Source: Ischnura elegans (Eukaryota > Arthropoda > Insecta > Odonata > Coenagrionidae). Taken from it: a stretch of 64,000 nucleotides of DNA. The stretch covers positions 133,312,972 through 133,376,971 of the forward strand of contig NC_060248.1 of the NCBI RefSeq assembly GCF_921293095.1, written 5' to 3'. Shown piece by piece: positions 27,222 to 59,112 of the stretch (within the stretch, counting starts at the first letter, position 1; the number at the start of each line of letters is the position of its first letter). The notes under the pieces were generated by a model. It did no database searches and was not told the DNA's origin. It saw only the letters and a list, made by a program, of their open reading frames with translations. The position numbers and the translations under genes are program-made.

Positions 27222-28245
27222 ACCCAGTCGAAACGGAAGCGTTCGGGGAAGTGTCCGGGAAGTGTTGCGGGAGTGTTCAGGAAGAGTTTAACGGTATGTG
27301 GACGCTTCCCGAACACTTCCTCAACACTACCTGACTGTAGACCCTTCGCTTCCTCGCCACTTCGTGGTTAAAATACTTCCCGGACGCTTTCTGAACACTC
27401 CCCGTCTCTCGACACTTCGGCTTCGCTGACGCTTCTTCGCCACTCCCGGGATGAAACGCTTCCCGAACACTTCCTCAACACTTCCCGCCTCTCGACACTT
27501 CGATTTCGCTATTTTGGTCATAGGACTTCCTCAAAGGATTGCTAATTTGTAATTAATAAAGTATGATTGAAAGGGTAAATAACAGCTGAAGTTGCATTTG
27601 AGAGAATTCACAAACAACCCACGTGAAACGGGATCGTCGATGAAGTATTGCGGGAGTGGAAGCAGCGGTGGAGTGCTGTGGGAGCATTCTAAATGTTATC
27701 ACGGTAGTACACTAAAAACAGCTACGGCTTTACACAGTGCAATTCATGGTAGTGAAGAGTATGGACGTGCCACCGTAGATTTCCTGAGTTCCACCGCCGC
27801 CAGCGAGGGTCGCAGCTGGTATAATGCCTTAGAATTACCGTGTCACTATCTAAGAGCGGTAGACGGTTACCGAACCTGACTCGTACCCGGAGGTCTAAGG
27901 TTCGATTCATAGACGCGGCATTTTTTTTCATAAATTGTTTCTACCTTTCATTTTAAGAAAGCCTGCTGTTCATTATTATTTCCATGATTTACAATTAAAA
28001 TTTTATTTTTCCATATGGAAATCTTTTTCTGCAATGTGGCAGCGTCAGGTGTCGGATGGACACTTCATGAACACTTCCTGATCACTTCCGAAACGCTTCC
28101 GGAAGCGTTCCAAGTGGGCCATAATCTGCTTCCCGGACACTTCCGCGACACCTCCTCAACGCTACCTCAGCACTTGCCCACCACTTCCCGAACACTCCGT
28201 CCGACGCTTCCCCAACACTTCCTCAACGCTTCCGTTTCGCCTGGG
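27222..28245. mobile_element. CCC/GGG-ended TIR element (element A)
   Basis: Left TIR CCCAGTCGAAACGGAAGCGT, right TIR reversed CCCAGGCGAAACGGAAGCGT. Both are followed by tandem-like words of the GGAAGTGT / CTTCCCGAACACTTCC type (27240-27510 and 28050-28225). AA lies outside both ends (27220-27221, 28246-28247), read as a 2-bp target duplication. Length is 1024 bp. No protein gene is recognised; the centre holds a tRNA-like cassette. Superfamily unknown. Confidence 0.8.
27842..27928 (+). other. tRNA-like Pol III cassette in element A
   Basis: A B-box-like GGTTCGATTCA (27899-27909; consensus GGTTCRANNCC) lies about 50 bp after an A-box-like TATCTAAGAGCGG (27847-27859). It ends in a run of eight T (27921-27928), a Pol III terminator. 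A partial T-arm (TCTAA / ATAGA) can be drawn, but I cannot fold a full acceptor stem, so this is not an ordinary tRNA gene. It may be a tRNA pseudogene, a SINE head, or a transcribed part of the element. Confidence 0.55.
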
Positions 28246-28249
28246 AATG

Positions 28250-29140
28250 TACACTATTTCATTTCAGAAGGGTTCGTAAATGATGTTTTTCCATGACCAC
28301 CGTGAATGGTTAATTCACAATCATAATGCCACTCGAAATGTTGATCAAAATATGTTACTTAAAAAAGACAATGGAAAATACTAATGTACAAGTATTCCCC
28401 AGAAACAAAAGGCCACCACGTCCTAAGACGCGCTGTGGTCTAAAACGTGAAACTTTCGTCAATACTCATAAAAATCTCGTTACTTCTTTCAGAAAAAAGC
28501 ATATAAACTTTGAAGGTAATGCAAAACAATACACTTTCCCCTCTTAAAAATACAATTCAAAAATTTTCTCTTCTCGTAAAAAATTGCCTTACTGGTACTT
28601 TTTGCCAGGTTGAAATTTAAGATGCTTCTTTTTTCCATTTTCAGGATGGGAGTAAGTTGTGACAGTCAAAATGTAAGTACTATTTGCATTCCGGATAAAC
28701 TGACATTTAGGAAGTAACTGCGATTTCACTTATTTACTTTGAAAAATGACTGAAAATCCTGCGCCACCGACATAGGTTAACGCTCTGAATTATATTTGTA
28801 TGTTTTTTTCCGCATTAGGCTAGGGAGACGACTCAGGTGTTCCTCTCTCTCTTCCTCGCTCAACTCGCAATAAAACCTTAAATTCTTCTTAAATGTTTCG
28901 GCTGTGGCAAGGATTAATGGGAGTTTTTTTATCTAAACGGGTGCTATATATAGGTAACCGTAACCACTTCCACCAGATACAGCTCATGTGTACGAAGAAC
29001 AATCCCCTTCCCTACCACATTCCCTCGAGAAAGCAACCATCATCAAAACTCTGGGGCCACCCAAACATCGACGCAGCGAAATAGCCCACACATGGTTTTT
29101 ATTTATATCCAAAGCCATAACTTTTTAGACAAAGTCACTG
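28250..29140. other. No recognised gene
   Basis: Spacer with a few short open frames (for example 28326-28547 plus, 73 codons) and no domain. Confidence 0.4.
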
Positions 29141-29147
29141 GCATCAT

Positions 29148-31090
29148 GTGAGTCGCACATTAGAAAATTTAGTGCGTGGTTTGCACCAAATCCTTGTGCA
29201 TGCTGCTCAGATCCCGAAGACGGCCATCGTCACTCCTTTTGGGCTCTTTGAATTCCCGTTTATGACGCTTGGTCTTCGTAATGCGGCGCAAACTTTTCAA
29301 AGGTTCGTCGACGACGTGCTGAAAGGACTTAGTTTCGCATATGCATATATAGACGATATCCTAGTGGCGTCCTCGGACGAGGAAGAGCATATGACTCATT
29401 TAAGAGTGTTGTTTAACCGTCTTAAGGAGTACGGTATTGTCATTAATCCCGCCAAGTGCAGTTTGGGAGTGTCGGAAGTGAACTTTTTAGGTTGCTCAGT
29501 GTCTAAAAAAGGCGTACGTCCCCTTCCCGATAAATTCGAAGCCGTCCTTAATTTTCCTGTTCCTACCACTATCTGGAAGTTGAGACAGTTTTTAGGGATG
29601 CTAAATTATTACCGGCGATTCATCCCCAGTGCCGCCGAATTACAGGCTCCCCTTACAGATCTCCTTTCGCATTGCCCTAAAAGTGAAGACAACATTCCGT
29701 GAACTCCCGACTTGGAATCTGTTTTCCGTAGCTGCAAGAAAGCATTCAGCCAGTGCGCTCTATTGGCACATCCGGATGTGACCGTTCCACTCGGCCTTTT
29801 CACGGATGCTTCGAACGCATCAGTTGCAGCGGCCCTCTACAGCTTACCCCGAATGGATGGCAGCCTCTTGCCTTCTGGACCAAGAAACTGAATGATGCGG
29901 AGAAGCAGTATAGTGCGTACGACAGAGAGTTGTTGGCAGTGTACAAGGCCGTTCTCCAATTTCGGCACATGGTGGAAGGACGTCACTCCACCATTTTCAC
30001 CGACCATAAGCCTCTGACATTTGCCTTTTCGCAAAGACGGGACAAGTGCTCTCCCCGTCAATTCAGACATATAGACCAGACATTTATTTTCAGACATTTA
30101 TTGTCTTCCCGGAGTCGACGTTGCCTCTGGTCTGCGATGTGTCCCTAAATATAGTCCGTCCATTCCTCACCCAGTCGTTCCACAAGCAAGCGTTTAACTC
30201 GCTACATAACTTGTCCCACCCAGGAATCCGTCAGACCGCCAGATTAGTGGCGGAGCGTTTTGTGTGGCCGTTTACGAAAGACTGACGCGCCTGGGCCCGC
30301 TCGTGTTTGCAGTGCCAGCGGAACAAAGGCACCCGTCATGTATCCGCGCCGGTAGGTGATATTCCCGTGACTGAAAACAAACTTAGTCATGTGCACATCG
30401 ACTTCGTTGTACCCCTCCCGTATAGCGACGGTTTTCGTTACATTTTAACCTGCGTGGACCGTTTCAGCCGTTGGCCTGAAACGTATCCCGTTGCCAATAT
30501 CACGGCCGAAACCGTTGCCAAAGTGTTTTTTCGGCGGTGGATATCCCGCTTTGGAACCCCCCGGCGCATCACCACTGACCAAGGCCGGCAGCCCCACAGC
30601 AACCTCTTCCACCAGCTCCTAAAACTTTCCGGTGCGCAACATTTCCGGACGACGGCGTACCACCCCTGCACCCCAATGGGATGGTGGAGCGATTCCACCG
30701 TCAGCTCTGGAAAGACGATCTCCAAGCCACTCCTGTGGAAGTGGTATATGGGCTCACTCTCAGCCTTCCAGGGGAGTTCCTTTCCCCGCCCGAGAGCAGT
30801 TCAGTGAAAGCGACAATGGACTATGAGGCCGTACTGAGAGATAGCCACCGAAGATTCCGCCCCCAGCCAGTTAAGCGCCATGGCTCCCATAGTGCGTTTA
30901 TTTTTCCCGAGTTAGAGAAGTGTTCCCATGTGTTTGTGAGAGATGATCGTCTTCATGGCGCCTTAGTCCCCCTTATGATGGTCCATTTAAAGTTCTCTCC
31001 CGAAGGCCAAAAACCTTTAAGTTAGATATGCGGGGACGCAAAGTGGTAGTCTCCATTGACCGAATTAAACCTGCTTTTGTATCTAACGCA
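29148..31090 (+). mobile_element. Gypsy (Ty3-type) LTR retrotransposon fossil, pol part
   Basis: Broken remnant of a Gypsy-family element. Recognisable parts in order: reverse transcriptase core (YIDDILVAS catalytic motif, LRQFLGMLNYYRRFIP connection), RNase H region (YDRELLAVYKAV, FTDHKPLTFAF), and integrase with its zinc-binding and catalytic core region (HIDFVVPLPYSDGFRYILT, VDRFSRWPE) followed by the C-terminal domain. It has several breaks and no LTR that I can see. It is old. Nothing here can be expressed as a complete polyprotein. Confidence 0.9.
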
Positions 31091-31099
31091 GGTGTGGTA

Positions 31100-31321
31100 T
31101 TCGACGTCTGTTTGTTTGTTGCATGTCAAAATAAATATGTATCAACTTTTATTGTATTGCTCGTGATGGTATCGCATTACTGTATGAACTAGAAGCTTTC
31201 GTTTCTAAAGCTAGCTTTATATTATATGACTCCCTAATTTCAGTATTCATTCTCTGTTTAGGAAATGAAGTAGGTGGCAACGTCACAGCTGTGCTTTCAT
31301 GTATTATGATGGAATAGTATC
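31100..31321 (+). repeat. 222-bp direct repeat R, copy 1
   Basis: Runs from TTCGACGTCTGTTTGTTTGT to GATGGAATAGTATC. It recurs in the same orientation at 36011-36234 with about 95 per cent identity by eye. It begins just after the Gypsy pol fossil. It lacks obvious TG/CA ends and does not match the LTR at 35181-35391. Confidence 0.85.
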
Positions 31322-33107
31322 GATGTTTCAGCTGCAGAGGTGAGAAAAGCAGAGGTAGGAGATAGTGAATTTGAGGATTGATGGAACAGCTGTGAAAAAG
31401 TGAATCAAATAATAGTGAATCGTGTGGAAAGTGCTGTTGTGTCACTTATCATTGTTTTCGTGTCAGCTGATTTTAATACGCTCATTGAAATTTTTGATAG
31501 ACCCTGAGCTGTGCCGATAAACTGCATCTTAATTGTGTGAATAACTTTCTTGCCTATAGAGGAAACAATTTGTATTGAATTCCACATGATATATGTATAT
31601 TGCATTAATGTTGTTCAACGTTTGTGGTGAATCATATATGTTCGAAAACTTTATTGTTGTTCGGAGAAATCCTTTGTTTTCAAGCAAGTAATTGTCGACT
31701 GCCCGTGTTATAATTTCATAAATTTTAAGTTTTAATTGTAAAAGGTAGCGAATAGTGGGGAAAATAATTTCGACTCGTAGCATGTATTTGTATATACTGT
31801 CCAATTGAGGAAATGAACGGCTGATCAAAATATATGGTATCATTATGGTAATATTAGGTTTTCATTGAAAGCTATAACTATTATTTGTCGAGTTAGTGTG
31901 TTAACACAAGCTTGAAATTTTTTACATAGCCCACATTGAGGATGTTATTTTCGTCGCACGTCAAATGTTGAAATAAAATTATTCATTGTAATTATGAACG
32001 AATTACGGAAATTTTGGGCTATTCGTTGTAATTCTTTGCCATGAATATTACAAAAGAGGATCCTCAAGTCTGCCTCTAGATGTGTTGTCACCGACCGCGC
32101 ATTTAAATGGGTTTACAAAAGTCGCCACTCGCGTCGCTGGCAGACAAAGTGATCAGAGTTTCACGGGGAAGGAGCAATTTCGGGTTTCAACCGATATTTA
32201 TATTCAAGATGATTCTATCTGTCAATTTCATTACTTTTCAATACTATCCCTTGCAATTACAAACAATATACTGCAGAATAAAGAAAAAAATTAGATCGCA
32301 TTTCACTCATCACCGCGAAGCTGGCATCTTTGAAAACCTATTAAAATGGACCGAAGTGGCAACAGAAATCGGCCTTCTATGAGAAGGAATTAGGCCTCCT
32401 CCTCTATGCAGTCCCCTTGTTCTTTGCATAAATTGTTATTGTTTTCGTACTGTCAATGAAGTAAGCTTGTGCTCCACATATTAAGCTCGATTTTTGTTTC
32501 GAACCAATTCGCTTAACTTATGAAATATTCATCATTTATGCTACGATTGTTTAATTTTAAAAAATTGATATCATTTTATTTTTGTCTATTATTCCATTTT
32601 TCAATACTTGATTAGGTTACTTTAACCTCATAAAAACAATTCAACATCGCAATGCGCATTTTTTCTGGGTTGCAATACCGAATAGCTCCGCCTGGAGGGC
32701 AAGTCTGCAACTCTGTTTTCTCCCGAAAATGGGAGAAAGGAGTTTCGTGAAGCGCCTGCGCGAAAGTTGTTTCCCGCCCCAAGCCTCAAACGCTTTCCGC
32801 CGGAGAAAGGAGACAATTTGTCGCCTGGGAGAATACTAGTCTCCCGATCCAAGTCTGTAAGCCCTCTCAAGCGCCTTCCGGCGTCCAAGACGGGCACTTC
32901 AGTTACATCCCCCTCAAGAGCCCGACGTATCTCTTTCTTCTATGGAGAAAATGCGTATCTCGACAGTGTTTTGTTGTATTTTCTCAATATGGCGCGTTTT
33001 CTTTCAAACCATAGAATATTATTGCTCATTTATAAGGTGCATTTAAGAGAAGTGGGGCAATTAAGACTATTGAGATATTGTTGCGGGATAATAATAAAGC
33101 ATTTAAA
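31322..33107. other. No recognised gene
   Basis: AT-rich to about 32630, then a CG-richer block at 32650-32950 (open 114 codons plus at 32767-33111 and 89 codons minus) with repeated TCTCC/GGAGAA words. No domain is recognised, and it could be an unknown repeat. Confidence 0.35.
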
Positions 33108-33276
33108 ATAGTTAAAGACTCGCTGCGCTCCGCGCGCTCGTTAAGGGGCTCCGCCCCTTAAAAACCGTCTACATTTGTGGTCGTTCGAAGAATTTTAGTT
33201 CGAATAATCTCACCTCAGCTAGGGGCCGGCTTCGCCGGCTTAACGAGCGCGCGGAGCGCAGCGAGTCTTTAACTAT
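33108..33276. mobile_element. 169-bp MITE with perfect 37-bp GC-rich TIRs
   Basis: ATAGTTAAAGACTCGCTGCG begins the left arm (33108-33144). The right arm (33240-33276) is its exact reverse complement over all 37 bases. Inside are two more small palindromes, GGGGCTCCGCCCC and GCCGGCTTCGCCGGC. The TIRs are far richer in G+C than the surroundings. No target duplication is clear. The lack of any mismatch suggests recent insertion or strong constraint. Confidence 0.9.
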
Positions 33277-34235
33277 CTATTGCTATCCATAGTTAACTGC
33301 TTAGAAGTTATTTTCCAATATTTAAAAAAAGTGTTTTTCTTGCGCTCTCTGAATTACCATTAGCTATCTAAACGCCGCTACTTAGACGAAAAGAATGCAG
33401 AGCTACATATTATTGTTAGGATCGCGGTGTTTTTGTCTGAAATCTTACTGAAAACTGCCTTCCCGCACAAATTCTGCGCAAAATCCTCTATGTTGGGGAC
33501 TGGGTAACGGTCCGGCACTGTTTTCGCGTTTAAGGCACGGTAATCGCCACATAATCGCCACGGTAATCGCCACATCGCACACTCATCTCCGCTTTTGGGG
33601 ACTAAATGGAGGGCGGAGGACCAAGAACTGTCAGATCTCCTCGCGATATCCGTCTTCACCATCAAATCAAACTCCCGCCTAGCAATGGCCAGCCTATCGG
33701 GAGCGAGACGTCGAGGTTTGGACTTAAGTGGATGGTCCGGGACGGTATGGATGTAGTGCTCTGTGGAATACAGCACTCGCTGAGGAAGGCCCGGCAGTCT
33801 CGTGGTCTCTGGGAATTCTTCCAAGAGGCATGGGGGTGAACCATTAATGACGCGCACTTGGATCACCTCCCGAGGGGCAACTACACCAGACACCGAGAGT
33901 GTTGAGGCGCTGTCCACCACACGCCTCCGCGCAACGTCCACTAAAAGCCCGTAATGGTGGAGGAAGTCGGCACCGAGAATGGGTTGCGGCACATCCGCTT
34001 CCAAATCAGCTCCCTCCGTAGACCAAGGGAAAGGGAAAGCGTCACGCACCCGAACGTATGTAAGGGGAATTATTTGCTGCAAACAGCTGAAAATCCGTCT
34101 TTGGGCGTCGCTCCTTTAGGAATTTAACCGGGTACACGCAGATATCGACTCCGGTATCTACTAACAATTCCTCCCGGAAAACACTGTCGTGGACGAAAAG
34201 GCGGTCGGATTTGCGAAGGCAGTCTCCCGCCGCCA

Positions 34236-35042: not shown

Positions 35043-35180
35043 AAAACACTAACAGAATTAAATAAATCACAGTTCCGAAACACTTCAAATCGATCACTTG
35101 GGCTTGTTCGAGTCACGTTGCAGTCACAGTCAAGGAGCACGTTGCGGCTAAACTTCACGATCACGTCGGGGTCACCAATT

Positions 35181-37605: not shown

Positions 37606-37960
37606 CCCTGGTGAAAATGAAGTGTGCAAAAACCGTGCAGAAAGTGTTCAAAAAGCGTTCTGAGAAGCGTGCAAAGAGTGTGAGAAAAGTGTGCAATGTC
37701 CCCCAAAAGTGTGCAAAAAGTGTGAGAAAAGCGTGCATTGGGACTACTGAAATGTACATAAAGTGTGAGAAAAGCGTGCAAAGAGAGTGAGAAAAGCGTG
37801 CAGAGTGCCTTAAAAGTGTGAGGAAAGCGTGAATTGGGAATACAGGGAAGTGCAAAAAGCGTGAAAAGAAAGTGCAAAAGGCACTGAAAGAAATTGTGAA
37901 AAGCGCTTAAAAATTGTGCCTAGAGTTTGAGGGAAGCACGAAGTGGGAATAGTGGAATTA
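37606..37960 (+). repeat. GTGTGCAAAAAGTG repeat block at a CCC end
   Basis: Begins AA-CCCTGGTGAAAATGAAGTGT (element start at 37606), close to the CCCTGGCGAAAAAT end of element H at 48034. About 20 degenerate copies of a 17-20-bp word, AAAAGTGTGAGAAAAGCGTG, follow. A weaker similar patch lies at 42365-42435 (GTGCACAGAAAG, GTGCGCGAAATGTGTG), so the element may extend to about 42450, but the right terminus is not clear. Confidence 0.6.
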
Positions 37961-44847: not shown

Positions 44848-47800
44848 CCCTGGCAGAAAAGAATGGTAACATTTGTGTAACCTAATGGTAACTTTGGAGT
44901 GTACCATTAGTGTAGGAAAACGGTAAACTCTTTGTAGGCTGTGTGTAACTATAGTGTACATAGTTGTAACTCCAGTGTAAAATCTGTGTAACTTTGTGGT
45001 AAAGTGGCCCAATCTGTGTAGGTTTTGTGTGTAACTTGTGTAACAATTGGCGCTGATTTGTGTACAGTGAGTACCGAGTCTGCTGTGGTACATGATGTGT
45101 ACATGATGTACACTATAGTACCATTTAGTGTACAGCTGTACAATAATGGTAACAAGGGTTCCATGCAATTAGGATTAAAATTAAAAACATAAATGCAGGA
45201 ATGTTTAAAAATCAATCTTTATTGCTGTTTGAAGAAGAATATAAATCATCAATTGTTGCCTCCTTTACTCCCTCTTGATAATCTTGATAGTTCCTGTTAA
45301 ATGAAAAAGTAAAATTAAGAACATTTGTCAAGCAAAATTTTATAACACGATAAAATGGACAAAAATTTGGTTTAATGCATAACATGACACTTTTTCTGTT
45401 AAAACAATCTTTCTTTTTTTTTAATGAAATGAAACAGTGGTTGAGAGGGCCTTATTTTTCACAACATTTTCATACATAACAACCCCTTAAGTTACTGCTC
45501 TTATTTATTTTACCTCATACCATGTTGATTCCTGCTAACTTATATTAAGCCAATAGGTAAAATAAAATTTGAAGTAACTTACGAAGCCAGGCTCCTGAGA
45601 TTTTCTTCTTCCCCAAGCCAGTGTTATGTCTTCCATTTAAATCGCTGGCCAGCTTTGACAACATGGTCATCACCTCTGTGGACTTTTGTGCAACCATTAA
45701 TAAAACTCATTTGGTTATTAACAGAAAAATAAATTCTACCACTTTTATGCATTTATGTTATCACAAATCTATTTATTTTCAAACAGAATTTTAAAAGAAG
45801 CTACACTAATAAACAGCTTCAGAATACTTCCACAAAGATATCAAATTTAGGAAATTTAATATTGTTATTCAATATAACTTAAAAGTTAAAACACCAATTG
45901 ACAAAATATGGGAAAATTAATTACACACTAATGCTACAAAGAAGTGAGAACCGCACTACTGATTAGGATGATCAATATGATGGCCTTTCTTCTAGGCATC
46001 CCTAAATTTGTCATGTCTAAGCCAATCCTTTTAAATGTAATTTTCTAATTCCTTAGATGAAGCACTTAGGTGATAAAGTCAAACTGCATCTGTAAAAGAA
46101 GAGGTATTCTCTATGACAATGATATCAACAAAATGTAGTCCAATTAATCATCATAGGTAATTTATAAAATTTTTGAAGGATTGATTAATTGGAAAATAAG
46201 GAAGAGATATGTTAGACAATAACTTATGTAGTGGGGATGAAGAGCTTAATAAGAAATAAGTCTTACTGAAGAAAGGGATAGATGTTTTTTGGGGTGTTTT
46301 CACAAAGAAATATCCTTTTGATTTAGAATTGCCTCAGTATCTCTCCTCTAATGATGAAAAAATGTAATATAAAACTTACCAAAAATTATTGTTTTCAGGC
46401 CAAGCTCAGAAAATACTCTTTTATTTTTGTAGCCTATCCAGCTATAGTTGGCTTCCAAGATGTCTTTCATGACATACCGGATAGTTCGTTAAAATCATTT
46501 ATTTAGAAGTGTTGCCTCATATTAGGGCCAACTCGGAAATCTGCAATGAAATTAAAAAAGTATATACATTGTAATCTTCATTTTCAAAGGTAGATGCGTC
46601 AATCAAGTCTTTCACAGAATTGTAAATATTCATGATGATAATATTTTATAGGACTCTGTCGCATGAGACATTTTGTATAACAATAGTTTCACCAGCATTA
46701 TTGCCAGCATCTTCAGGTATTATTGACAATTCAGTTATGTCCTGTTATGTACACTGCATTCACAAACTGACATCCGATATATATTTAAACCAGTTGAAAT
46801 ATTATTTTCCGAAGATATTATTTCTGCCCCAATTCCAACTTCTACTGAAATTGCCAGCAAATTGTGAAAATTGATAACATGATAACTCTATAAAATCAAT
46901 ACCTAAATGATAATGATCGGAGAGAGTTAAATTGATGGCTATGTTTTGAACAGCTTATTAATTATTATAATTCTTCGACATATTTCCTATGGTTATTCAT
47001 TTTCAAGAAAAAACTCTTCGTATACGATTTAATTGAGATTGAGACTGATACTTTAATGCCATAACTAACTGCTAACAAAGTGGATTCTTCTGCGAGAACC
47101 CTGATATTTCAACTTAATCGGTCTGAATGGATTGTATTTTTACTATGGCCGCGAAAGCAAAGATCATGCTAAATTGTAATTAAACTGTGAATATAGTAAT
47201 TAATAATCTTAAATACTCATTGGATAGAAATTAGCGGTTCATTAATCGTATTAGTACATACGAAAGATTACATGCACAACCTCGGTGATTTACTAACGAA
47301 TAGAAAAAATGTTCCATTTACTTAAATTTACATGGTCAGCTCAGCAGATATGTGTTGATGCTGACAAAGATATATTCTTATATCTCTTCGTGCCGCTAGG
47401 ATCCACTTTACCCGGTAATTCAGTACACAGAAACTATCCGGCGTCGATTTAAAAAGTCCCTGAAATAGTATTCCTCCCATTCCTTTTTGCCAGTCTTCAT
47501 TGCGAAACACGGATTATTTACCTCTTCCATTGCGTACTTCAACGTAAATTTGCTTGTAAAATAAGATTCTACAGCATAGCTAAATTCGCAAAGTCACATA
47601 ATACAGTAGCTGCGAATGTTTCATCGACGGCTGTTGGGACATGGTATGCAAGATGGCCGCCGGTCGCTTTGGCCTTTGGCGCAAGTGTCAAAATACGATA
47701 TTTAATCCTTTATATTAAAAAATAATAATTACATAATATAATGGTATCACGACACAGTGGTAAAATTGTGATGACATTTGTGTCCCCAAAAATAGTGATT

Positions 47801-48034
47801 GATGTGTATATATTGAGTACACTTCTGGTGCATGAATAGACTGGTAACTTAGTGGTACAATCTGTGTAACATCTGATGCATCACATTGAGTACGGCTGTG
47901 GTATCAATAATGTAAAGGATGTACAGGCTGTACGATTTGTGTAACTTTGTGAGTAGAAAAGTGTAGTAAATGTGTAATTTTACATAATGTACCATATTTT
48001 TACTCATATTTGTTACACAGATTTTTCGCCAGGG
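44848..48034 (-). mobile_element. CCC/GGG-ended TIR element with spliced gene (element H)
   Basis: Left TIR CCCTGGCAGAAAAGAATGGT, right TIR reversed CCCTGGCGAAAAATCTGTGT. TA lies outside both ends (44846-44847, 48035-48036). Just inside each end are 15 or more TGTGTAAC / GTGTACA-type words (44866-45150 and 47750-48020). At 3187 bp it is the largest complete member. It has coding-like exons on the minus strand (next entry). It is inserted in the Copia fossil and so postdates it. Confidence 0.85.
45247..47510 (-). pseudogene. Element H gene, multi-exon, weak DUF4806-like segment
   Basis: Coding-like minus segments in order: NYRVKWILAARRDIRIYLCQ-HQHISAELTM (47430-47328); ELSIIPEDAGNNAGETIVIQ (about 46745-46660); RYVMKDILEANYSWIGYKNK and RVFSELGLKTIIF ending at a GTAAG donor (46478-46378); VAQKSTEVMTMLSKLASDLN then GLGKKKISGAWLR (about 45700-45590); NYQDYQEGVKEATIDDLYSS then a stop (about 45300-45225). 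The W-x-G-x-K-x-K-x-x-F-x-x-L segment resembles the insect DUF4806 module, but I hold this loosely. Exon borders are guesses and some segments may be broken. The related element at 42455-44456 shares the first segment. Role unknown: transposase accessory or cargo. Confidence 0.4.
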
Positions 48035-49005
48035 TATGATGAGTGGAAGTTCCGGATGGAAATTTACTTAGATGAAAAGGAGTTACTGGAGCATGTGAGA
48101 GTGCCATTTGAGCAACTGATGGACCCTTATGAAATACAGAGAGGAGACAGTGCTGAAACTCAGGCAAGTAAAAGTTCCGCTACAGCGGGATTGAAGAAGC
48201 TTGACAAAAAGTGTAAAAGGTTCATTATTCAGAGCTTGGGAAATTCTCAGTTACTACAAGTGCGAAGTAAAGAAACTGCGAATGAAATATGGACATATTT
48301 AGAAATCAAGTATGAAAAGAAAACTCCCGTGACTAGGATGATGCTGAAAAAGAAGTTAAGCAACCTTGAGTTTCGGCCGTCATCAGAAACGTTTGATGAA
48401 TATTGTGTGAAATATGATGCCCTTATTATGGATTTGAAAAGAGTTGGGGAAATGATAGATGATATGGGGAACGTATTACAATTCCTAATGACTATGCCTG
48501 AGGAGTATGATGCTGTAGTGTCAGGACTGGAAACCTTGGCTACGGAGAGGTTAACCATGGAGTTCTGTCGTCTTCGTATTAGTGAGGAGGAAGCAAAGAG
48601 GAAGGAGAAGAAAACAGGGAGAAGTCCACTAGATGTCACTGATGCTTCTCCCACAGCATTTGCCGGTTCAAGATACCAAGATAGGAGCCTGAAGAGGTTT
48701 GGCAAGTCTCACCTTGTTTGCCACAATTGCAAGCTTCGAGGCCATAAGGTGACCGAGTGTTGGAGACCAAGTGGAAGGATGTACAAAGGTGCAGATAATT
48801 TAAAATCAGGTAATGCAAATTGCATAAGACAGGAGTCTTCTGAGGATGAACTGCCAGCGCATAGTTTTGTCACATTTGGAACAGTAAATTACAAGGTAAA
48901 TAATGTATGGATTCTAGATTCTGGTGCTTCTGACCATCTTGTCACGGTAGATACTCCTGTTGTTAATAGAAGAAAGCTAAAAGAATTTGTTAAGATTGGT
49001 GTAGC

Positions 49006-49205
49006 CAGGGGCGGATCCAGGATTTTTTTCTGGGAGGGGCACAAGCAAGGCCGTATCCAGGATTTTGTTCTGGGTGGGGCACCAGGATACCTCGTAATAC
49101 AAAACGAATGCAATGATAATGGGACTGTATTAAAAATCTTGCATATTTTTGAGGGTCTGGGGGGGGGCACGTGCCCCCGTGCCCCCCCCCCTGGATCTGC
49201 CTATG
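49006..49205. mobile_element. 200-bp hAT-type MITE inside Copia
   Basis: TIRs CAGGGGCGGATCCAG and reversed CATAGGCAGATCCAG. An exact 8-bp target duplication GGTGTAGC lies on both sides (48998-49005, 49206-49213). Runs of G then C lie in the right half. Exact duplication plus preserved termini mark a fairly recent insertion in the Copia fossil. No coding capacity. CAGGGG-type ends and 8-bp duplications are hAT hallmarks. Confidence 0.9.
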
Positions 49206-50015
49206 GGTGTAGCCAAAGCAAGCACATATTTAATCTCGAAAGAAATTGGTGATGTTTATGCACTGACTTATGTTGATGGGAAACCAAGGAAAATAGAACT
49301 AAAGAATGTATTGATAGTTGAAAATTTAAAGTGCAACTTAATTTCTATTTCTAGGTTAGAACAAAAAGGTTTCAAAGTTATTTTTGAGAAAGGTTCATGT
49401 ACTATCAATATAAATCAAGCTGTTGTAGCAGTGGGATGGAGAGAGTCAAATATGTATAAATTGGAGTTAAAAGAATTATCTAATGTCGAGGCATTTATTG
49501 GTATCAGTGATGGACAATTGTGGCACCGGAGATTGGGCCACATAGAAGTTGATGGGCTGAAGCAGATTGGTAAAGCGGTAGATGGACTGTATGAGTTAAA
49601 TGCTAAATATGATTTGTGTGATATTTGTGTACAAGGGAAACAGGCATGTCTTCCACACAATCAGAGAAGAGAAAGGGCTCGTAGACCGCTTGAAATAGTT
49701 CATAGTGATGTATGTGGACCTATATCACCCACTGCTTACAATGGAGTAAAATACTTGCTGACTTTGATAGATGATTTCTCTCATTTTACAGTAGTGTATG
49801 GTTTAAAAAGGAAAAGTGAAGTAATAAATTATTTAACAATTTATGAGGCGATGGCAACTAGCAGATTCTCTTCTAAGATATGTCAGTTTAGATGTGACAA
49901 TGGCGCAGAGTATGTGAATGAGAATGTTAAGATTTTTTTTCAGGAGAAAGGAATTCAGTTTGAGTTAAGCAACCCACACACATCTCAACAGAATGGGATT
50001 GCAGAGAGGATGAAT

Positions 50016-50833
50016 CCCACACAGAAAATAAACATCTATTAGATATCTAGTAGATATCTACAGATAGATAAATAGTTATCTAATAGACATCTATCATAGA
50101 TATCTATTAGATATATTATTGTCAAAATAGCAGCAGTTCTAATAGATATCTACGGTAGATGTCTATTAGACATCTACTGTTGATGTCTATCAGATGTCTA
50201 CTGTAGATGTCTATTAGATATTTAATTACCTGTTTTATACTTATCTATATCTATAAAAAAATTTCTCATGCCTATGCTTGATGCAATTAACATTAGTGAA
50301 AAAATTGTCGCCGTATGATCAAAATGAAAACTACAAAAAAAAATACCTCGACGTGACATTGAACTAGTGTTCCCCGTTCCATAGCCAAACGCGCTCACCA
50401 CTACACCAACTGAGCCTGTTATAGATTTGAAGCTTTTTTTTAAATTATATAACGATTCTTAAAAATACCACTCGGAAATAAATTAATTACAGCCAAACTA
50501 AGGCCCATTCAATGGAATCATACATCTATTCATAGATGAAAATGGACAATATATAGATACAGTTGGCATAGTCGCCACGCATCGTTCTACGCGTCGCAAA
50601 ATTTTTCAAGTCCGCCATCACTCCAGTATAAGGAACCAAAAAAATTGTCCCTAAATCAAATGTTATATCGCTTCCATAGCTCTTAAATCGCGTTTTAAAA
50701 CACACTTTCGGAGATGTATCCAAAATCGCCCCTTGTCACCTGCACATCTAATAGATGTCTTATAGACATCTATTAGATATACATCTACATAGATGAAAAT
50801 AGACAATATATAGATATCTATCTTACGTGTAGG
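50016..50833. mobile_element. CCC/GGG-ended TIR element (element B)
   Basis: Left end CCCACACAGAAAATAAACAT, reversed right end CCTACACGTAAGATAGA. AT lies outside both ends (50014-50015, 50834-50835). Subterminal blocks (50028-50225 and 50735-50822) consist of TAGATATCTA / TAGATGTCTA palindromic words, about 15 on the left and 6 on the right. The 818-bp element sits in the Copia integrase region. No protein gene; a tRNA-like cassette occupies the centre. Confidence 0.8.
50335..50420 (-). other. tRNA-like Pol III cassette in element B
   Basis: On the minus strand: TGGTGTAGTGG (50408-50398) matches the A-box TRGYNNANNGG fully. AGTTCAATGTC (50365-50355) matches the B-box at 9 of 11. The cassette ends in a run of nine T (50343-50335), a Pol III stop. 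The head GGCTCAGTTGGTGTAGTGGT looks like a real tRNA D-arm. The rest cannot be folded into a full cloverleaf by eye. It is probably a tRNA-derived transcription unit carried by the element. Confidence 0.6.
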
Positions 50834-51784
50834 ATAGAACTATTTTAGATAAAGCCAGGTGCATGCTTTTGGGGTCCAGTTTAAGAAAAACATTTTGGGT
50901 GGAAGCTGCTATGACTGCAGCCTACTTAATTAACAGGAGTCCAACTAAAGCATTAGATAACGTCAAGGTTCCAGCAGAGATGTGGTTTGGTTTCCGTCCA
51001 GATGTAAGTAAGTTGAGAGTGTTTGGATGCGTGGCATTTTCTCGTAAAAACAAATCTGAATTAAAGAGCAAATTTGATGAGAGAGGAAAGAAATGTATTT
51101 TGCTTGGTTTTTGTCCTAATGGATATAGATTGTGGAGCCTATCGGAAAGAAAAGTAATTTCTGCTTGTGATGTTGTATTTGATGAAAGCAGGAGCAAGTT
51201 CTCAGGTGAATTTTGGGATGATGATATGTGGGAGAATTCACAGGATAGCTCAAGAGGAGAAGCAAGGTGATGAACTTGAGATGGTAGATTTGGATTATTC
51301 TGATAGTAAGGGTAAAAAAGAGGTAGATCTGGGATTAAGGAGGAGTAATCGGGAAGAGGAGAAGCTAGGTGATGAACTAGATATGGTAGATTTGGATTAT
51401 TCTGATAGTAAGGGTGAAAAAGAAGTAGACCTGGGATTAAGGAGGAGCATTCGAGTCAGGAGGAGGCCAGAAAGTTTAATAGAAAACGCTACTTTGGCAC
51501 CTACAATGAACTGTAAAGAGTTCTTCTCTGAGGAGAATTGTAATAAAGGAAAATTGTATACAGAGAATACGGCTTCATGCCTAGAATATTATCCTATTGA
51601 TGAGTTATGTTGTGCATTGAATGCAATGTCTTTTTGCTATAGTGTTCCTGAGTCTTTTGATGAGCTAGAGAAGAGATGGGATAAAGAGAAATGGCTAAAA
51701 GCTGTGGATGATGAAAATTCAGTCATTACAAAAAAATCACACATGGGAAGTAGTAAAATTACCCGAGGGAAGGAAATTTGAATG

Positions 51785-52430: not shown

Positions 52431-52439
52431 TATAGGTAG

Positions 52440-53290
52440 GTAGCAGCACCATGCTATCTTTCCGTCCTTGTTGAGAACGTTCACTAGCTGTTCACTGTTC
52501 TCTGTTCGTACCCTGTACCGTGAAACGGACTATGAACCGGCCCTTGCCTGTTGAGTGTCCGTTCACTGTTGTCTGTTCGTTCCCAGTCCGCTGAAACCAC
52601 AGAGTACATACTCCTTGGCTGAAACATACGGCCCCTGCCTGTAATTGGCGAAGTAAAGTATTTAACGTGCGTAAGCCGTGCAGATAGCTGATATAATTTG
52701 CGTGCTCACTTCAATAACCGTCATCCGTGGTTGATGGTAATCGTGATAATGAATTCAAGCGTATATAATTACTGTTTAAGTAGATGATATTTTCTTTGGA
52801 TTCAATTAAACTTCCTTGTACTCAATTAAATTTTGATTAATCCAAATTGTTGTCCAAATTCCGAAACTTAAAACAATTGTTCGTACGTTGTTCATAATCT
52901 GTTCTCAAAATCTCCAAAAGGCTCCAAACTGACAGCGAACAGGCAGGGGCCTGTTTTATATTTTTACGTAAATCGATAGGGTGTTTAGTGTTTGTTCACT
53001 GTTGTCTGTTCATTCCCTGTTCGGTGAAACATACTACCAACCGGCCCCTGCCTGTTAAAAGCTTGTTCACTATTGTTCCCGAAATGCTTGTTGCCTGCCT
53101 GTTAAGGAACAAGCTGCAAACAGAGTACAAACTGTTAGAAGGCTGTTCGTAAGTTGTTCCTACTTGTGTGTGACCCGAGATTGTTCGTTGGCTGTTTATA
53201 CTCTGTTCACTAATCTCCAACAGGCTATCAACAGACTTCAAACGGACAGCGAACAGGCATTGTTGTTTCAGAAATCGACAGGGTTGATGC
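52440..53290 (+). repeat. CTGTTCACTGTT repeat region
   Basis: Two clusters (52465-52660 and 52890-53270) of GTTCACTGTTGTCTGTTCGT-type words and CCGGCCCCTGCCTGTT-type words on both strands. Two copies of a possible GGG end occur: AAATCGATAGGG (52974) and AAATCGACAGGG (53273). Reversed, these read CCCTATCGATTT and CCCTGTCGATTT, as in the CCC/GGG elements. No matching CCC left end was found. Possibly one or two decayed members. Confidence 0.6.
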
Positions 53291-53292
53291 AT

Positions 53293-53697
53293 TTCTCCTT
53301 CATTGAAAGCGATAGATTGCGTAAAGATGAAGGAAAATGGTTATTCTTAGGCTGATCCTAGCAAGCTTCCTGTTACTGATTCCATCATGATACCGCGGGG
53401 TATTTTAGTGAAACTGTAGACTTCGTCGCCGCTGAAAGTCGATGTCGAGAAATGGAAAGGTAGCTGATGTGCATCTAAAATGTTTTTTAGTTCATAAAAA
53501 AGTGAGACATGCAAGTAATATTGGCGAAAGCGTACGTACTCATGTGAAATGTGTATTCTTTTGGCAGTCCGGTCGAGAGTTTTATGGTGAACTTATTTTC
53601 CTCCTCGAGGCAGTCAATGATGCTTTCAACTTAAAAATACCTTTCCTGGGAGGCGATAGGAAGCTCTTTAGGACTGGAATCTGAGCGAGCCAGTCTA
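53293..53697. other. Short unrecognised frames
   Basis: Plus frame 53442-53684 (80 codons) contains KVRHASNIGESVRTHVKC and no domain I know. It might be a scrap of a gene from the decayed element on its left. Confidence 0.3.
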
Positions 53698-53719
53698 CCC
53701 ATGTGGAAAAATTTTCTGG

Positions 53720-54240
53720 TCCAGTACTGGATTTATGCTGGTTAAGTACTGGATTTATACTGGGTCAGTATTAATCCTGTACTGGACCAGAACCGGCCAA
53801 TACTGGGCCAGAACCGGCCAATACTGGGCCATAACCGGCCAGTACTGGGCCAGAACCGACCAGTATTGATTTAGCACTGGAACAGAACCGGCCGGTACTG
53901 GGCCAGAACCGGCCGGTACTGGGCCAGAACCGGCTGGTGTTAAACCAGTACTGGACCAGAACCGGCCAGTACTTGACAAGAACCGGCCAGTACTTGACAA
54001 GAACCGGCCAGTACTGGGCCAGAACCGGCCGGTATTAAACCAGTAATGGACTAGAACCGGCCAGTACTGGACCAGAACCGACCGGTACTGGGCCAGAAAC
54101 GCCAGTACTGGGCCAGAACCGGCCGGTAATAAACCAGTAATGGACTAGAACCGGCCTGTACTGGACCAGAAACGGCCAGTACTGGACCAGAACCGACCAG
54201 TACTGGGCCAGATACGCCAAAACTGGGCCAGAATCTCCAG
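53720..54240 (+). repeat. CCAGTACTGG array, left
   Basis: Units of about 20 bp, mostly GGCCAGTACTGGRCCAGAAC, with variants ending TATTAAACCAGTA. Imperfect higher-order repeats of about 100 bp (compare 53935-54040 with 54030-54140). Confidence 0.9.
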
Positions 54241-54767
54241 TCCAGATTGGGTAATTAATGCATGTACAGAAATTAAACCTTCAATTTTTGCCATATAATT
54301 TTAAAAACATGCTTCAACGAAAAGTTATAAATATGCATTTTTAATGTATTCATTGCGTTTTCACAGAATAAATATTATCAACAATTTTAACTAAGATCTT
54401 ACAGTGAATAATACTATTTTACATGTTTCTTTCATGGAAGTTTGGTCTAGTGAGGAAGTTAAAGGTTGATGATTAGTGCTATACGTCATCTGAATCATTC
54501 TTTGATTTCCATGCGCGTAGCGCATTGTCTTTTGTCATTGAGCTCGGCGCCATCTTGGATTCTCTGGACTTCGAAACATTTCACTCCCGTATGCTCTCTA
54601 GAATAACCATAGAGCGTACGGGAAAATCACTTTTTTTCAATTTTAGAGTAAATGCCCAATGGTAACGTCAATTTCCGGTCCTTATCCCACTCCCACTTTC
54701 GAGCCAGCGTCGCTACTTCCGGTGTAGATAGATCGTTCAGTCTCGCTTGTGGTGTGCGTGTGTCAAC

Positions 54768-55377
54768 ATGGCTAGGTATCGTTCTCAAAGAAGAGAGGCT
54801 CCTCGGAGACCCGTGGAGAAAATCATCAAGGATTGCACTCCCGTAAATATACCAGTTTGCCTTGTGAACAAATTCTTCCAGCTGGAGCTGTAAATGTGTG
54901 GGTTGCTGACACCATTGGACCAAACTTCCTTAGAAGTAAGTTCTTTAAAAGAACTATAATCCTATTAATAGCTGGGCCATATGCCATCACTGGTGCTTCG
55001 ATGAATCACCTAAAAGGCCTTAGTCTAAAAAACTGCCTTTTATAAGGTCTTAAATAATTTTCTTGGGGCCGATTAAGCTTTGGACAGAGTATAATTACAG
55101 GTTAGTTATTGTTTCGTTGGTTATTGCATACACAGTAATCTCAACACTAATGAAACAATGAAAGTCAAAACAATAGTGATAGTAAATTAATGGAGAGGAT
55201 AAAGATATTTCAATGCTTTTATGCTTTCTCCATCCTTCGTTTTCAGACTATGCAGAACACTACGCGAGAGCCAGAAATATAAAGGTGGAAGATCACAGTT
55301 ATGTCAAGAAGCAATTGTACACGAGATTGTGCGAAATTCGAAAAAAGGCAAAGGCAAACTTAAATACGTCTATTTAA
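54768..55377 (+). CDS. Small multi-exon gene in element C, unknown
   Basis: Exon 1, from the ATG at 54768 (reads MARYRSQRREAPRRPVEKII then KDCTP, very basic), ends at a GTAAAT donor after 54842. An internal piece ending at a GTAAGT donor near 54940 reads GAVNVWVADTIGPNFLR. The last exon, after TTTTCAG at 55246, reads DYAEHYARARNIKVEDHSYV, KKQLYTRLCEIRKKAKANLN and TSI, then stops at 55375-55377. An AATAAA follows at about 55450. The frames of the first and internal pieces do not obviously join, so the splice model is uncertain. The final exon has a clean helical, basic profile that looks DNA-binding, but I recognise no domain. It is the best candidate for an intact gene among these elements. 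Confidence 0.4.
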
Positions 55378-55504
55378 TGAAATATTAATTCTTAATCACT
55401 ATCTTTTTTGACCATATATCTTTCTATGTAACCGAATTATATGACTTTAAATAAACCTTTAAAATGTTTTTTTTCAATGCGATTATTTTATTCAAATTTG
55501 ATTA

Positions 55505-55760
55505 TAGCACTAGGCCGGAACCAGCCCAGTACCGCTTGGAGCTGGCCCGGTACCGGCCCAGTAACGGCCCAGAACCGGCCCAGTAACGGACCGGAACTGG
55601 CCCAGTAACGGCCCGGAACCGGCCCAGTAACGGCCCGGAACCGGCCCAGTAACGGCCCGGAACCGGCCCAGTTCTGGGCCGATACTGGCATTTTCTTGCC
55701 AATTTTGGAAGTATCCCAGTACTGGGCCAATACTGGCCCAGTACTGGGATTTTTCCGCAT
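55505..55760 (-). repeat. CCAGTACTGG array, right
   Basis: Homologous but distinct units: GGCCCAGTAACGGCCCGGAA, then CCAGTACTGGGCCAATACTGG near the terminus. A 20-bp period is clear over at least six units. Confidence 0.9.
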
Positions 55761-55769
55761 GGGTATTAA

Positions 55770-56321
55770 TGGCTTCAATTTAGTAGCGATAATATGCACG
55801 AATTTCCAACACAATCTACCAGCTTGTGACTCAAAAACCCCGAAGCCACTTCCTATTCTGCAGAAAGAATCAGTCAATCGCACTCCTATCAATATAATAA
55901 ACACAACGTCTTCTGGTGTTATAAGTTACTTTTGTAATGAAATCCTTCCTAAATTAGCATTAAAATGTGAATGTTTTCCAAACAGAGTCTTTAATACATT
56001 TTGGGAGCTTTTCTCACGATATATCTGAAACCTACTATAAAGGCGAGCTCATAGTCATTGCGATCGTTGTCACTTAAAAATTCCGTATCTGAAATCCTAG
56101 ATAAGCTTCACCTGCACTCTCACTATCACTGGAATCCATGGTTAAAATATCATCCCAATCCAATTTCTATTTGGTTTTAACTGGGGAAAGAGCAACATAT
56201 GAGAGAACTGCACATTCTTTGGGCAACTTAGGTTTGACTTTCCCTCAAACACCCCATTTCCCCTGTGGTGCACATCAGTCCTACTTTATACGAAGGCCTG
56301 ACAACCTTTAAATGGATCCTT
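55770..56321. other. No recognised feature
   Basis: Spacer between elements C and I. The plus frame 55696-56028 starts inside element C and has no domain. Confidence 0.35.
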
Positions 56322-56648
56322 CCCAGACGGCACAGAACCCTCCGTATCTAATTCGTATGTACATAGTACCCATTGACTAAGGGGATACTGTGCCGCTCCG
56401 TCGCTTTTCGTCAATGGATAATTTCCATTCGCGGCCTGTCGACGAAGCGCGTACGCAGCATGTGAATGTCCGCTACTAAGCACGTACGATTGGATACGAA
56501 GCGCTCAGGAACACGGCACTCAGGCTAATCTCAATCGATTAGGTCGAAATTAGGTATATCGTAACTCGCACGATCGAAAAATGTATCGAACGCAACACAA
56601 TCGATAGCTACCGACCGTAGCGAGAACCTTGATACGAATCATTATTAA

Positions 56649-56797
56649 TTGTAAGTTCTCAATAGGTAAATAACACCATATCATGAATTCTAATTACCAT
56701 GAAAGACTCACGACCGACAAAGTTTTTGTCGGTTGTGAGTTTTTCATGGTAATTAGAATTCATGATATAGTATTATTTACCCATTGAGAACTTACAA
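56649..56797. repeat. 149-bp near-perfect hairpin
   Basis: Arms of about 72 bp: TTGTAAGTTCTCAATAGGTA at the left pairs with the reversed right arm (TTGTAAGTTCTCAATGGGTA). The match runs through CATGAATTCTAATTACCATG to a GACCGACAAA / TTTGTCGGTT tip with a loop of a few bases. Only a few mismatches. It could be a tiny palindromic MITE or a structured RNA-forming site. Confidence 0.9.
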
Positions 56798-57376
56798 AAC
56801 TTATTCGGCCACTTAAATAACTGCGAAAAATGAGATTCTCAAGGCTAATTCACGCATCCCCAGCATCCAGCATTCTTAAGTGGCTCGTACTTACTTGGAA
56901 ACCTTGAGATGTTAATAAGAGTAAATTCTTATTAATTTTGACACTAAATAAGACATCACATATCCCACGAGCATTAAAAAGCTTACCCTAAAGCCTGACG
57001 AAATAAAATTTTTAAATAAAAATTGCCGATGAAACAGAATTGCTGACACATCTGCTACTAGTATGATCGAATTCATCAAAATGCAAGCAAAAATTAACGT
57101 ATAGTTCAGTCTCAGCTACTAAAACTTACCCATATCAGGCGCTAAAGTATTTGAAAAATTATTTGGGATGAGTAAAAGTCTCTAGGTCACTGCAGTAAAT
57201 GTATCAACCTATTAAAAATATGAAAGTCCTGCCAAATCACCAGCATAAACACTTGTAAAATAAAACATGGTATCTCTTAGATCACACCTCCGATTTTATA
57301 CTTACTTTGCATGAAGTCACCACCACAAGAAATTTTAAAGAGGCAGGAAAGAAAAAACCCACAGAAATACAATACA

Positions 57377-57860
57377 TATTATGTATTTTCTATTGTCAAC
57401 CACAATGATATTTCCAATTTTCTCTTCTATCCCACATCTAATTTAGCGAAACAATTACTCTTATTCTCTTTCGAAAGAATAGAAAATTATTTAAAAGAGG
57501 ACTGGTCGATACATAAAAACTATCTTCAATACTTTCTCCGCTGAACGTCCACTATCACAGCATCAACTTGCACAAATCAAATCCACATCCACAAATATGT
57601 CACTTCTGCCACAACGTCTGTATTATGTATTTTCTATTGTCAACCACAATAATATTTCCAATTTTCTCTTCTATCCCACATCTAATTTAGCGAAACAATT
57701 ACTCTTATTCTCTTTCGAATAAAAAATTATTTAAAAGAGGACAGGTCGATACATAAAAACTATCTTCAATACTTTCTCCGATGAACGTCCACTATCACAG
57801 CATCAACTTGCACAAATCAAATCCACATCCACAAATATGTCACTTCTGCCACAATGTCTG
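57377..57860. repeat. Tandem duplication, two units of about 242 bp
   Basis: 57377-57620 and 57621-57860 are about 97 per cent identical. They differ by a short gap after TTCTCTTTCGAA and a few substitutions. The boundary word is TATTATGTATTTTC. The right unit overlaps the end of THAP exon 2, so the duplicated piece includes the tail of that exon and its downstream intron. Confidence 0.9.
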
Positions 57861-58629
57861 TCTTCTTGGCGACAGGTAACAGTGAAGCAATGGTACCTTC
57901 CTCCAATCTGGGCACCTTCAATTCAGCAAGAATTTTCTCCTCGTCTTCTCGTCCAAGGCCACAGATTACTTTCTGATATCACAATGGTGCGATGTGAAGC
58001 TCACACACCTAAAATTAATAAATAATAAAATACCATGTAACTTATTAGGTCAAATCATTTCCAATTTTTGGTATTTCTGCATGAGAAATCAAATTACTAG
58101 GCTCGTAAATATAGTAAATATTTGTATGCCTGATATTTTTATTGTTTTACACTATAGCATAAGATAATTTGAAATGATGAAAGCCGACGTGTAATACACC
58201 ATAGGGCAAGCTAAGAAGCAATATTCGATCCTATAAACTTGGCAGCTTATTCCTAGTTTCTCCTTTTAACCACACGTTCACCGAATGAATTAATACAAAA
58301 AAGACAACTAAAATGCAAGAATTTTCAAAAGAATTGCTGCTACAATATTTTCAATCACCATTTTTAGTACTGAATAGTACTATAGTACTGAATAGTTCGG
58401 GATGTTGATGCATCAACATCCCGAAGCCACTTCTAACTTAAACTTACATCCAAATAATTACAGCGAGAAAGAGTACATACCTCACAGCTTCTCGTAGGGG
58501 TGAAATGTTTTCTTCTTATCGCCCAAATGCACTTCTTCTTCAACTCAGGATCTTTTGGAAAGCTAAAACCTTGAACCATGTCCCGGAGTTTCCATTACGT
58601 CATCCCGACAATAAACACACGAAAGGCAT
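57810..58629 (-). pseudogene. THAP zinc-finger gene remnant in element I
   Basis: Exon 1 from ATG at 58629: MPFVCLLSG then a TGA where THAP proteins have the second Cys, then RNGNS. A frame change follows into GFSFPKDPELKKKCIWAIRR then KHFTPTRSCE, ending at a GTATGT donor (58481). Exon 2 (acceptor TTTTAG, from 58008 down): VCELHIAPL, giving the C-x2-H pair, then a TGA, VICGLGREDEEKILAELKVP, RLEEGTIASLLPVAKKTD. The C2CH scaffold, FPKD, W-AIRR and the closing P-L/I pattern fit a THAP domain. The stop at the second Cys and the frame change mean it is broken. THAP domains bind transposon ends in P-like and ISL2EU-type elements. Confidence 0.65.
58396..58425. repeat. Perfect 30-bp palindrome
   Basis: TTCGGGATGTTGATG followed at once by its exact reverse complement, with no loop. 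It lies in the intron of the THAP remnant. It is preceded by a doubled AGTACTGAATAGT word (58368-58395). Confidence 0.9.
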
Positions 58630-59112
58630 TTTTAACAAAAATATCTCACAAACACGTTTCTGAAGCCCAGTGAATGAAATTAAAGAATAAGGGAAACTTC
58701 ACTATTACCAGACACTCTATTTTTCACAAACTTAACCACAAAAATCCCTGAAATGTGGTAAGACGTTACGTAACCGACGCGATCTCCAACGGCTGTGCTA
58801 GCTTGTGAAGACATGTGATCTTTCTAGGAGGATATGGCACGATGGCACCACCCGCGAAAGAAAATAGTCCCAGACCGAATATAGTTTTATCGATGAGATA
58901 CAATTTTATCGATGCATATGAATTTGCCAGTCTCTTGCATCTTTTTTCGTCATTATAGGAAATAAAGAAACAAAACCTTTTTAGTAACTTCCTAAGCGCG
59001 ATTTTTGTATCTTGATGGTCCACCCTCGTATTCAGGTACGAAAACTTCCTGTGCCGTCTGGGTTGCTTTATCCCTTTATCCAAGATATAAATTTGCAAAG
59101 TACAGCGGCTTA

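Follow-up and report, generated by a model that had tools for sequence, protein, structure and literature searches.

In a window of 64,000 nucleotides from Ischnura elegans (the whole stretch of DNA that was analyzed; NC_060248.1, positions 133,312,972 to 133,376,971), we find five elements with CCC...GGG ends, here lettered A to E, that are very probably non-autonomous members of five animal-type CACTA families (TRC/EnSpm, CMC group), moving by the mechanism proposed below. This placement follows from three properties: the CCC...GGG ends themselves, 2-bp target duplications of any sequence, and a Transposase_21 protein encoded within the B and D ends. It is well supported that the five are new families of a known kind and ordinary in class. 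The original prediction, which was made from the window alone, knew of no named superfamily with this combination, yet CCC-starting terminal inverted repeats (TIRs) with 2-bp duplications have already been published for animal CACTA/TRC elements (PMC1636069).

All five window elements are annotated as non-autonomous and without an assigned strand. Element A lies at 27223..28245 (TIRs CCCAGTCGAAACGG / CCCAGGCGAAACGG), between copies of the duplication AA at 27221-27222 and 28246-28247; B at 44848..48034 (3187 bp; TIRs CCCTGGCAGAAAAG / CCCTGGCGAAAAAT; duplication TA); C at 50016..50833 (818 bp; TIR CCCACACAGAAAAT; duplication AT); D at 53698..55763 (2066 bp; TIRs CCCATGTGGAAAAAT / CCCATGCGGAAAAAT; duplication TA); and E at 56322..59062 (2741 bp; TIR CCCAGACGGCACAG; duplication TT). 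Direct reading bears out the five CCC...GGG ends with similar inverted repeats that had been proposed, except that A starts at 27223, since 27222 belongs to its AA duplication. The right end of C reads CCT in the window copy and CCC in ten other C copies, and CCC-starting TIRs are found in all five families when window reading and genome copies are taken together. When the window is scanned blindly for CCC...GGG pairs whose 2-bp flanks are equal (TIR matches scored over 15; GGG...CCC pairs as control), E, D and A lead at 14 of 15 matches, whereas B, at 11 of 15, is level with chance pairs and C is missed. As the scan total (14) also equals that of the control (14), lone window copies have no power to prove B or C, and it is the genome copies that prove them where the window copies would fall short. 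An inner CCCACGTGAAACGGG at 27618 also pairs with the right end of A (12 of 15 matches); a similar word occurs in two other loci (L001 and L002), and the inner word may be the relic of an end that belonged to a shorter A.

A genome search with the termini, which had been proposed as a check, reveals that all five elements are members of multi-copy families. We searched the 1.72-Gb genome by end pattern, allowing as many as 3 mismatches for B, C and D, and used reversed patterns as controls (0 to 4 places). The A pattern is found at 168 places (reversed control 4), the B right end at 62, 41 of them exact (control 4), and the B left end at 52 (control 2); C gives 148 left (control 0) and 158 right ends (control 2), D 27 left and 18 right ends (control 0 for both), and the E pattern is the commonest, with 1757 places (control 0). 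For B, 43 of the 62 right and 50 of the 52 left places yield 40 left-right pairs less than 30 kb apart, of which 19 are 3187-3249 bp long.

With respect to target sites, we compared the flanks of 60 genome copies and the five window copies, a nonrandom sample of 65 that took 8 loci for A, 20 of the 40 pairs for B, and 10, 11 and 11 copies picked from the listed places for C, D and E. The predicted 2-bp duplication is an exact match in 62 of the 65 copies (A 9/9, B 19/21, C 10/11, D 12/12, E 12/12), while the third base is equal in none of the 65. That the duplicated pair consists of A and T is true of the five window copies, yet G or C occurs in 33 of the 62 duplications, only 29 being A/T-only and 7 being AT itself; given such mixed dinucleotides, the A/T pairs of the window elements are a coincidence of five.

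The empty-site comparison that had also been suggested points the same way. When the short flanks of all 65 elements were joined and compared with the genome sequence that had been retrieved (at most 5 substitutions in 38), one or more sites were recovered for six elements (A 1, B 2, D 3), with the dinucleotide present once in each, and none among the 65 for C or E. The A case carries 4 substitutions, one D case (L043) matches repeats of its own flank, and two of the targets are E copies, into which a B and a D copy had inserted. Separately, the C target is found uninterrupted at 15 genome places (at most 3 mismatches), 6 of them exact. In the window, B interrupts a Copia element within its gag part, and C sits further down in the same polyprotein (48035..51781, + strand), in a region that, from its motif, we take to be integrase and that is followed by a Pfam SH3_retrovirus match. 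The Copia frame resumes across both insertions, running through each site with the duplicated TA or AT counted once (GKEY then DEWKF at B, AERMN then RTILDK at C). Two palindromes of 131 bp (L126 and L127, on C1), which have E ends and are flanked by 2-bp duplications, are miniature E forms.

The published combination of CCC ends and 2-bp duplications in animal CACTA elements led us to search the genome for PF02992 (Transposase_21), which gave 26 matches. Three of these lie inside a B right end, by 2.6, 3.3 and 3.7 kb (on C13, C13 and C9), where random placement predicts 0.06 within 10 kb of B ends. Both C13 matches sit in intervals with paired B left and right ends, of 9395 and 11000 bp, and the 9395-bp copy (L107/L037) has TC as its flank at either end. 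The 11-kb copy, as far as it was fetched (L087), is 92% identical to window B over the 302 bp at its right end, and it contains an 804-amino-acid (aa) open frame, P0001, that matches Transposase_21 at 3.7e-11. A genome search with P0001 returned 58 matches (56 of 522 candidates scored); identity is 28-42% for most of them and long open frames are present in many, indicating that there are many related lineages in this genome.

It was through the P0001 search, and not the PF02992 list, that a transposase was found for D. D left and right ends face each other at C6:79006124 and 79031251 (25,128 bp), with AA on both sides, and the first 9 kb of this interval (L159) hold a D terminus, a D-type array and a 766-aa open frame that is 31% identical to P0001 over 561 aa. 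This frame alone matches PF02992 at 9.5e-7, with a score of 28.7 bits that only just clears the cut-off of 28.6, the family going unreported when whole L159 frames are searched with stops as X. In window D, the 39 bp at 54411..54449 match, at 35 of 39 positions, a stretch at the 3' end of the L159 Transposase_21 frame; this fits a deletion derivative, and window D looks like one that descends from a transposase-bearing relative. The search for a DDE transposase in longer copies, another of the proposed checks, thus ends in Transposase_21 within B and D ends.

Across P0001, L159 and L160 (three of three divergent proteins), D244, D330, C349xxC352, H565xxxH569 and E589 are invariant, as are C137xxC140 and C158xxC161 ahead of the core. 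The CMC(T) group is described as marked by C(2)C and H(3-4)H, both located between the second D and the E (PMC12730594), and the three proteins appear to carry the CMC D-D-E motif, with catalytic residues predicted from their conservation. The L160 protein falls below the reporting level of the PF02992 profile; its Transposase_21-like frame lies near a D end and was left out of the linkage evidence, being outside that D copy and without nucleotide homology to L159. The PF02992 match at C13:1871184, 4.3 kb from a B end, was left out as well because it lies outside the element. Pfam assigned no family to five frames in or near B and E or to nine interior frames of two B copies, a SAP match in L087 stayed below its cut-off (0.016), no solved structure matched P0001 by sequence, and an NCBIfam search gave nothing useful. 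Within the D interval, a minisatellite of about 94 bp occupies L159:3950-6560, UvrD_C_2 matches in L159 were dropped as they fall on it, and L159:4565-4912 repeats part of the transposase frame in opposite orientation.

These results bear on the relationship favored by the original prediction, namely that the elements are relatives of ISL2EU/PHIS, which encode a THAP transposase and a YqaJ protein. A 2-bp duplication is common to both, and YqaJ matches are numerous in the genome (150 scored of 309 candidates), so that ISL2EU-like or other YqaJ elements may exist there separately from A to E. ISL2EU elements, however, are described as having an AATT target of which only AT is duplicated, TIRs that usually start with GG, and THAP/DDE plus YqaJ proteins (PMC4482050), whereas here AT makes up 7 of 62 duplications and CCC starts the TIRs of all five families. 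For B and D the guess is refuted by the enclosed Transposase_21. Of the 150 YqaJ matches listed, none falls within 10 kb of any of the 50 B or 45 D ends; with chance expectations of 0.1 and 0.06, and with 150 of 309 candidates scored, this is a weak argument. The THAP gene that had been cited in favor of this relationship was not found in the window by a simple motif scan, whose one hit, a frame at 25139 outside the elements, was unconvincing, nor did Pfam report THAP in the five frames taken from B and E or their vicinity. With duplication sequence, end type and enclosed transposase all in disagreement, we regard a relationship to ISL2EU as extremely improbable.

Several observations nevertheless weigh against placing all five elements in CACTA. 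Window B and the fetched part of the 11-kb copy share the 302 bp at the right end alone; none of the 26 PF02992 matches comes within 10 kb of any of the 45 D ends; and, with 9 kb read of a 25-kb D interval that contains a minisatellite and may contain nested elements, its transposase might belong to one of these and not to D itself. Near the ends of A, C and E, no Transposase_21 was seen by eye among the matches listed (the first 100 of 168, of 148/158 and of 1757, respectively), and these three are provisionally placed by their ends and duplications, A and C also by their arrays. One may therefore ask whether only B and D are CACTA elements, with A, C or E belonging to another or unnamed superfamily that converged on CCC ends and 2-bp duplications. 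In addition to the missing transposases, the case for convergence draws on E, which has no array and whose TIR CCCAGACGGCACAG resembles plant CACTA TIRs less than any of the others does (4 of 11 positions beyond the first three, a score reached by 12012 of 20000 permutations). On the other hand, A, C and E have the same CCC start and an any-sequence 2-bp duplication (31 of 32), and A and the left end of C also carry the 11-bp signal described below. We consider convergence quite improbable and retain all five elements in animal CACTA.

Inside their ends, the elements differ in the short words that they repeat. The A word is GGAAGTGT, mostly in 11-bp steps, with subterminal arrays at 27235..27510 and 28129..28233; the B word is TGTGTAAC; C has the palindromic TAGATATCTA, mainly at the left end (array 50034..50221); and D has the palindromic CCAGTACTGG in 10/11-bp steps, with arrays at 53716..54233 (strongest period 21) and 55544..55748 (period 11/22). 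Like the elements, these arrays are given without a strand. We compared the commonest 8-mer in the 286 bp (536 bp for D) inside each end with 200 shuffles: counted over both ends, it occurs 8, 8, 9 and 23 times in A, B, C and D, against shuffle maxima of 3, 6, 6 and 5, and these 8-mers have no exact occurrence in the interiors. In E the commonest end 8-mer occurs twice against a shuffle maximum of 4, so that there is no word array. With one mismatch allowed, each word is concentrated at the ends of its own family and is found at most once at those of the others, while in interiors GGAAGTGT occurs 3 times in B, 2 in D and 1 in E, and TGTGTAAC once in A and 4 times in B's own interior. The claim that at least four elements have private arrays just inside both ends thus stands for A to D, although "both ends" is weak for C, with 10 one-mismatch words at the left end and 1 to 2 at the right. 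In alignments, the D arrays differ from copy to copy.

A sixth, one-ended candidate occupies 37606..37905 (no strand assigned): AA followed by CCCTGGTGAAAAT, which resembles the TIR of B, and then an array of AAGTGTGCAAA with period 11/22 by TRF. No convincing right partner end was found for it up to 46000. Two further repeat fields lie in the window. At 21268-23060, repeats of the type AAATAGCGCCTTTCGGAATTCTGTAAC, variable and 50-120 bp long, extend over 1.8 kb; at 52478-53300 there are unclassified repeats with TGTTCACTGTT and GGCCCCTGCCTGTT (lag-11 z of 6.2 at 53001).

The unrelated arrays share a step of about 11 bp, which is about one helical turn. We tested lags of 6 to 45 in 250-bp stretches, with z scores from single-base shuffles and 201 background windows of the same length, none of which overlaps the five elements, the array at 21200-23100 or the sixth end at 37606. 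Lag 11 is the best lag at five of the ten ends (both ends of A, B left and both ends of C) and the second best at four more (B right, E left and, after 21 or 22, both ends of D); in the background it is best in 6 of 201 windows, and its z reaches 4 in one. The lag-11 z scores (left, right) are 6.9 and 8.2 for A, 5.4 and 1.9 for B, 4.9 and 2.3 for C, 9.2 and 12.6 for D, and 3.3 and -0.5 for E. Shuffles that preserve dinucleotides give similar values (in the same order 7.3, 8.5, 5.6, 1.7, 4.8, 2.2, 8.4, 11.8, 3.3 and -0.4) and interior scores of 0.6 for B, 1.2 for D and -0.2 for E. The A words are spaced mostly by 11, 22, 33 or 44 bp, with exceptions of 12, 17, 23 and 49. At D left, 16 of 35 steps are of 11 bp and 13 of 10 bp, at D right 11 of 14 are of 11 bp, and the spacing per rounded turn is 10.5-10.6, a figure that leans to 10.5 by construction. 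Among pairs of repeated 6-mers within 60 bp, exact multiples of 11 account for 21/33 at A left and 17/27 at A right, 27/69 and 2/9 at B left and right, 19/161 at D left (where 21 dominates) and 153/174 at D right, and 3/11 and 0/10 in E.

A common register is not equally evident everywhere, and the following tells against it as a general property. At the right ends of B (z = 1.9) and C (2.3) it is weak, while E has a moderate signal on the left (3.3) and none on the right (-0.5). The B word itself falls off multiples of 11 (steps of 68, 43, 43 and 9), the C word has steps of 11, 13, 22, 37 and 46, and the pair count for C is low (17/90 left, 2/22 right). Since E has no word array, arrays are dispensable for some elements. 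It could thus be argued that the arrays have no role, being minisatellite growth or self-complementary sequence, and that the 11-bp step is a by-product of short-word slippage; the palindromic C and D words, the variation of D arrays among copies and the ability of E to manage without an array are all compatible with this. Against it, the words adjoin the ends and their exact matches are absent from interiors, the step is common to unrelated arrays, and D left has steps of both 11 and 10 bp, a mixture that would not be favored if a fixed unit had slipped; in maize En/Spm, moreover, TNPA is described as binding subterminal repeats (PMC2613891). We therefore regard role-less arrays as unlikely and favor a function at the ends.

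The earlier picture of a shared transposition machinery with lineage-private and plausibly protein-binding subterminal repeats is, in our judgment, right. Precise 2-bp insertion, a conserved TIR type, the private arrays of A to D and Transposase_21 in B and D are direct observations, from which the following mechanism is proposed. The Transposase_21 protein would cut at the CCC-type TIR, and the element would join a target staggered by 2 bp. The words would be read by a DNA-binding part of the transposase (the zinc-ribbon-like CxxC...CxxC before the core) or by a partner, as with TNPA; binding of protein to the arrays is predicted here by analogy. With repeats one helical turn (about 10.5-11 bp) apart, bound proteins would all lie along the same side of the DNA and could form a cooperative filament that pairs the ends, for which the IS607 filament serves as the model. 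Between lineages the words would drift together with the protein, while spacing and TIR type would stay. Non-autonomous copies would be mobilized in trans, with A, C and E assumed to use transposases of the same group. More tentatively, as a possibility for which we would not claim even odds, the end code of animal CACTA elements may be conserved as geometry: a register of 10.5-11 bp would be kept and the word replaced freely in each lineage, with transposase (or partner) and word diverging together and with TIR type and duplication remaining fixed.

These results settle the class of a set of abundant elements for which one window seems to offer no classification, and they suggest that several CACTA families with mutually exclusive end words occur in one genome, as for two soybean families. 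The class itself is ordinary, and the part most worth following is the register common to unrelated arrays. A helical step would provide a testable rule for how ends are read and for why lineages would not cross-mobilize, and up to five such families in 64 kb of a 1.7-Gb genome would form a natural set in which to follow the co-evolution of transposases and their sites.

The closest known relatives are the TRC elements of Schistosoma, Tribolium and Aedes, which have CCC-starting TIRs and 2-bp duplications and were placed in CACTA (PMC1636069); the Hydra element Spongebob/EnSpm-4N1_HM was placed likewise by its ends and duplication (PMC4298943). Animal CACTA (TRC/EnSpm) elements share with A to E the CCC TIRs, the 2-bp duplication (reported for 7 of 14 SmTRC1 copies), many defective copies and Transposase_21 (in SmTRC1 and, here, in B and D). 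Their family sequences are unlike those of A to E, and SmTRC1 combines a 54-bp TIR, inside which a motif is repeated, with a region of tandem repeats, the available excerpts of its description giving neither private word arrays at both ends nor an 11-bp register (PMC1636069). Subterminal repeated motifs, a hallmark of plant CACTA elements, are present in A to D (in C mainly at one end) and absent in E. In plants (En/Spm, Tam1, Tgm/Tgmt*, Jozin), which also share Transposase_21, these motifs are described as 10-20 bp long, direct and inverted, and family-specific; they tell two soybean families apart, and those of maize En/Spm are bound by a TNPA-type protein (PMC2613891, PMC8978399). Private subterminal motifs are thus not new as such. 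Plant elements differ in their CACTA ends, in their 3-bp duplications and in having a separate TNPA-type protein on the motifs, none having been identified here. The left TIR of D matches that of Chenopodium Jozin at 11 of 14 bases (204 of 20000 permutations) and its right TIR is less like those of plants (612 of 20000), while in the same permutation test the TIRs of B, C, A and E do not stand out in their likeness to plant CACTA TIRs. A literature search on helical register in transposon ends, judged by title, gave one further relevant system, the IS607 ends. For IS1535 of this family, a filament has been proposed in which helically phased subterminal motifs are bound cooperatively, as we propose for A to D, although IS1535 is bacterial, uses an unrelated serine transposase, and has neither TIRs nor a target duplication (PMC6188088).

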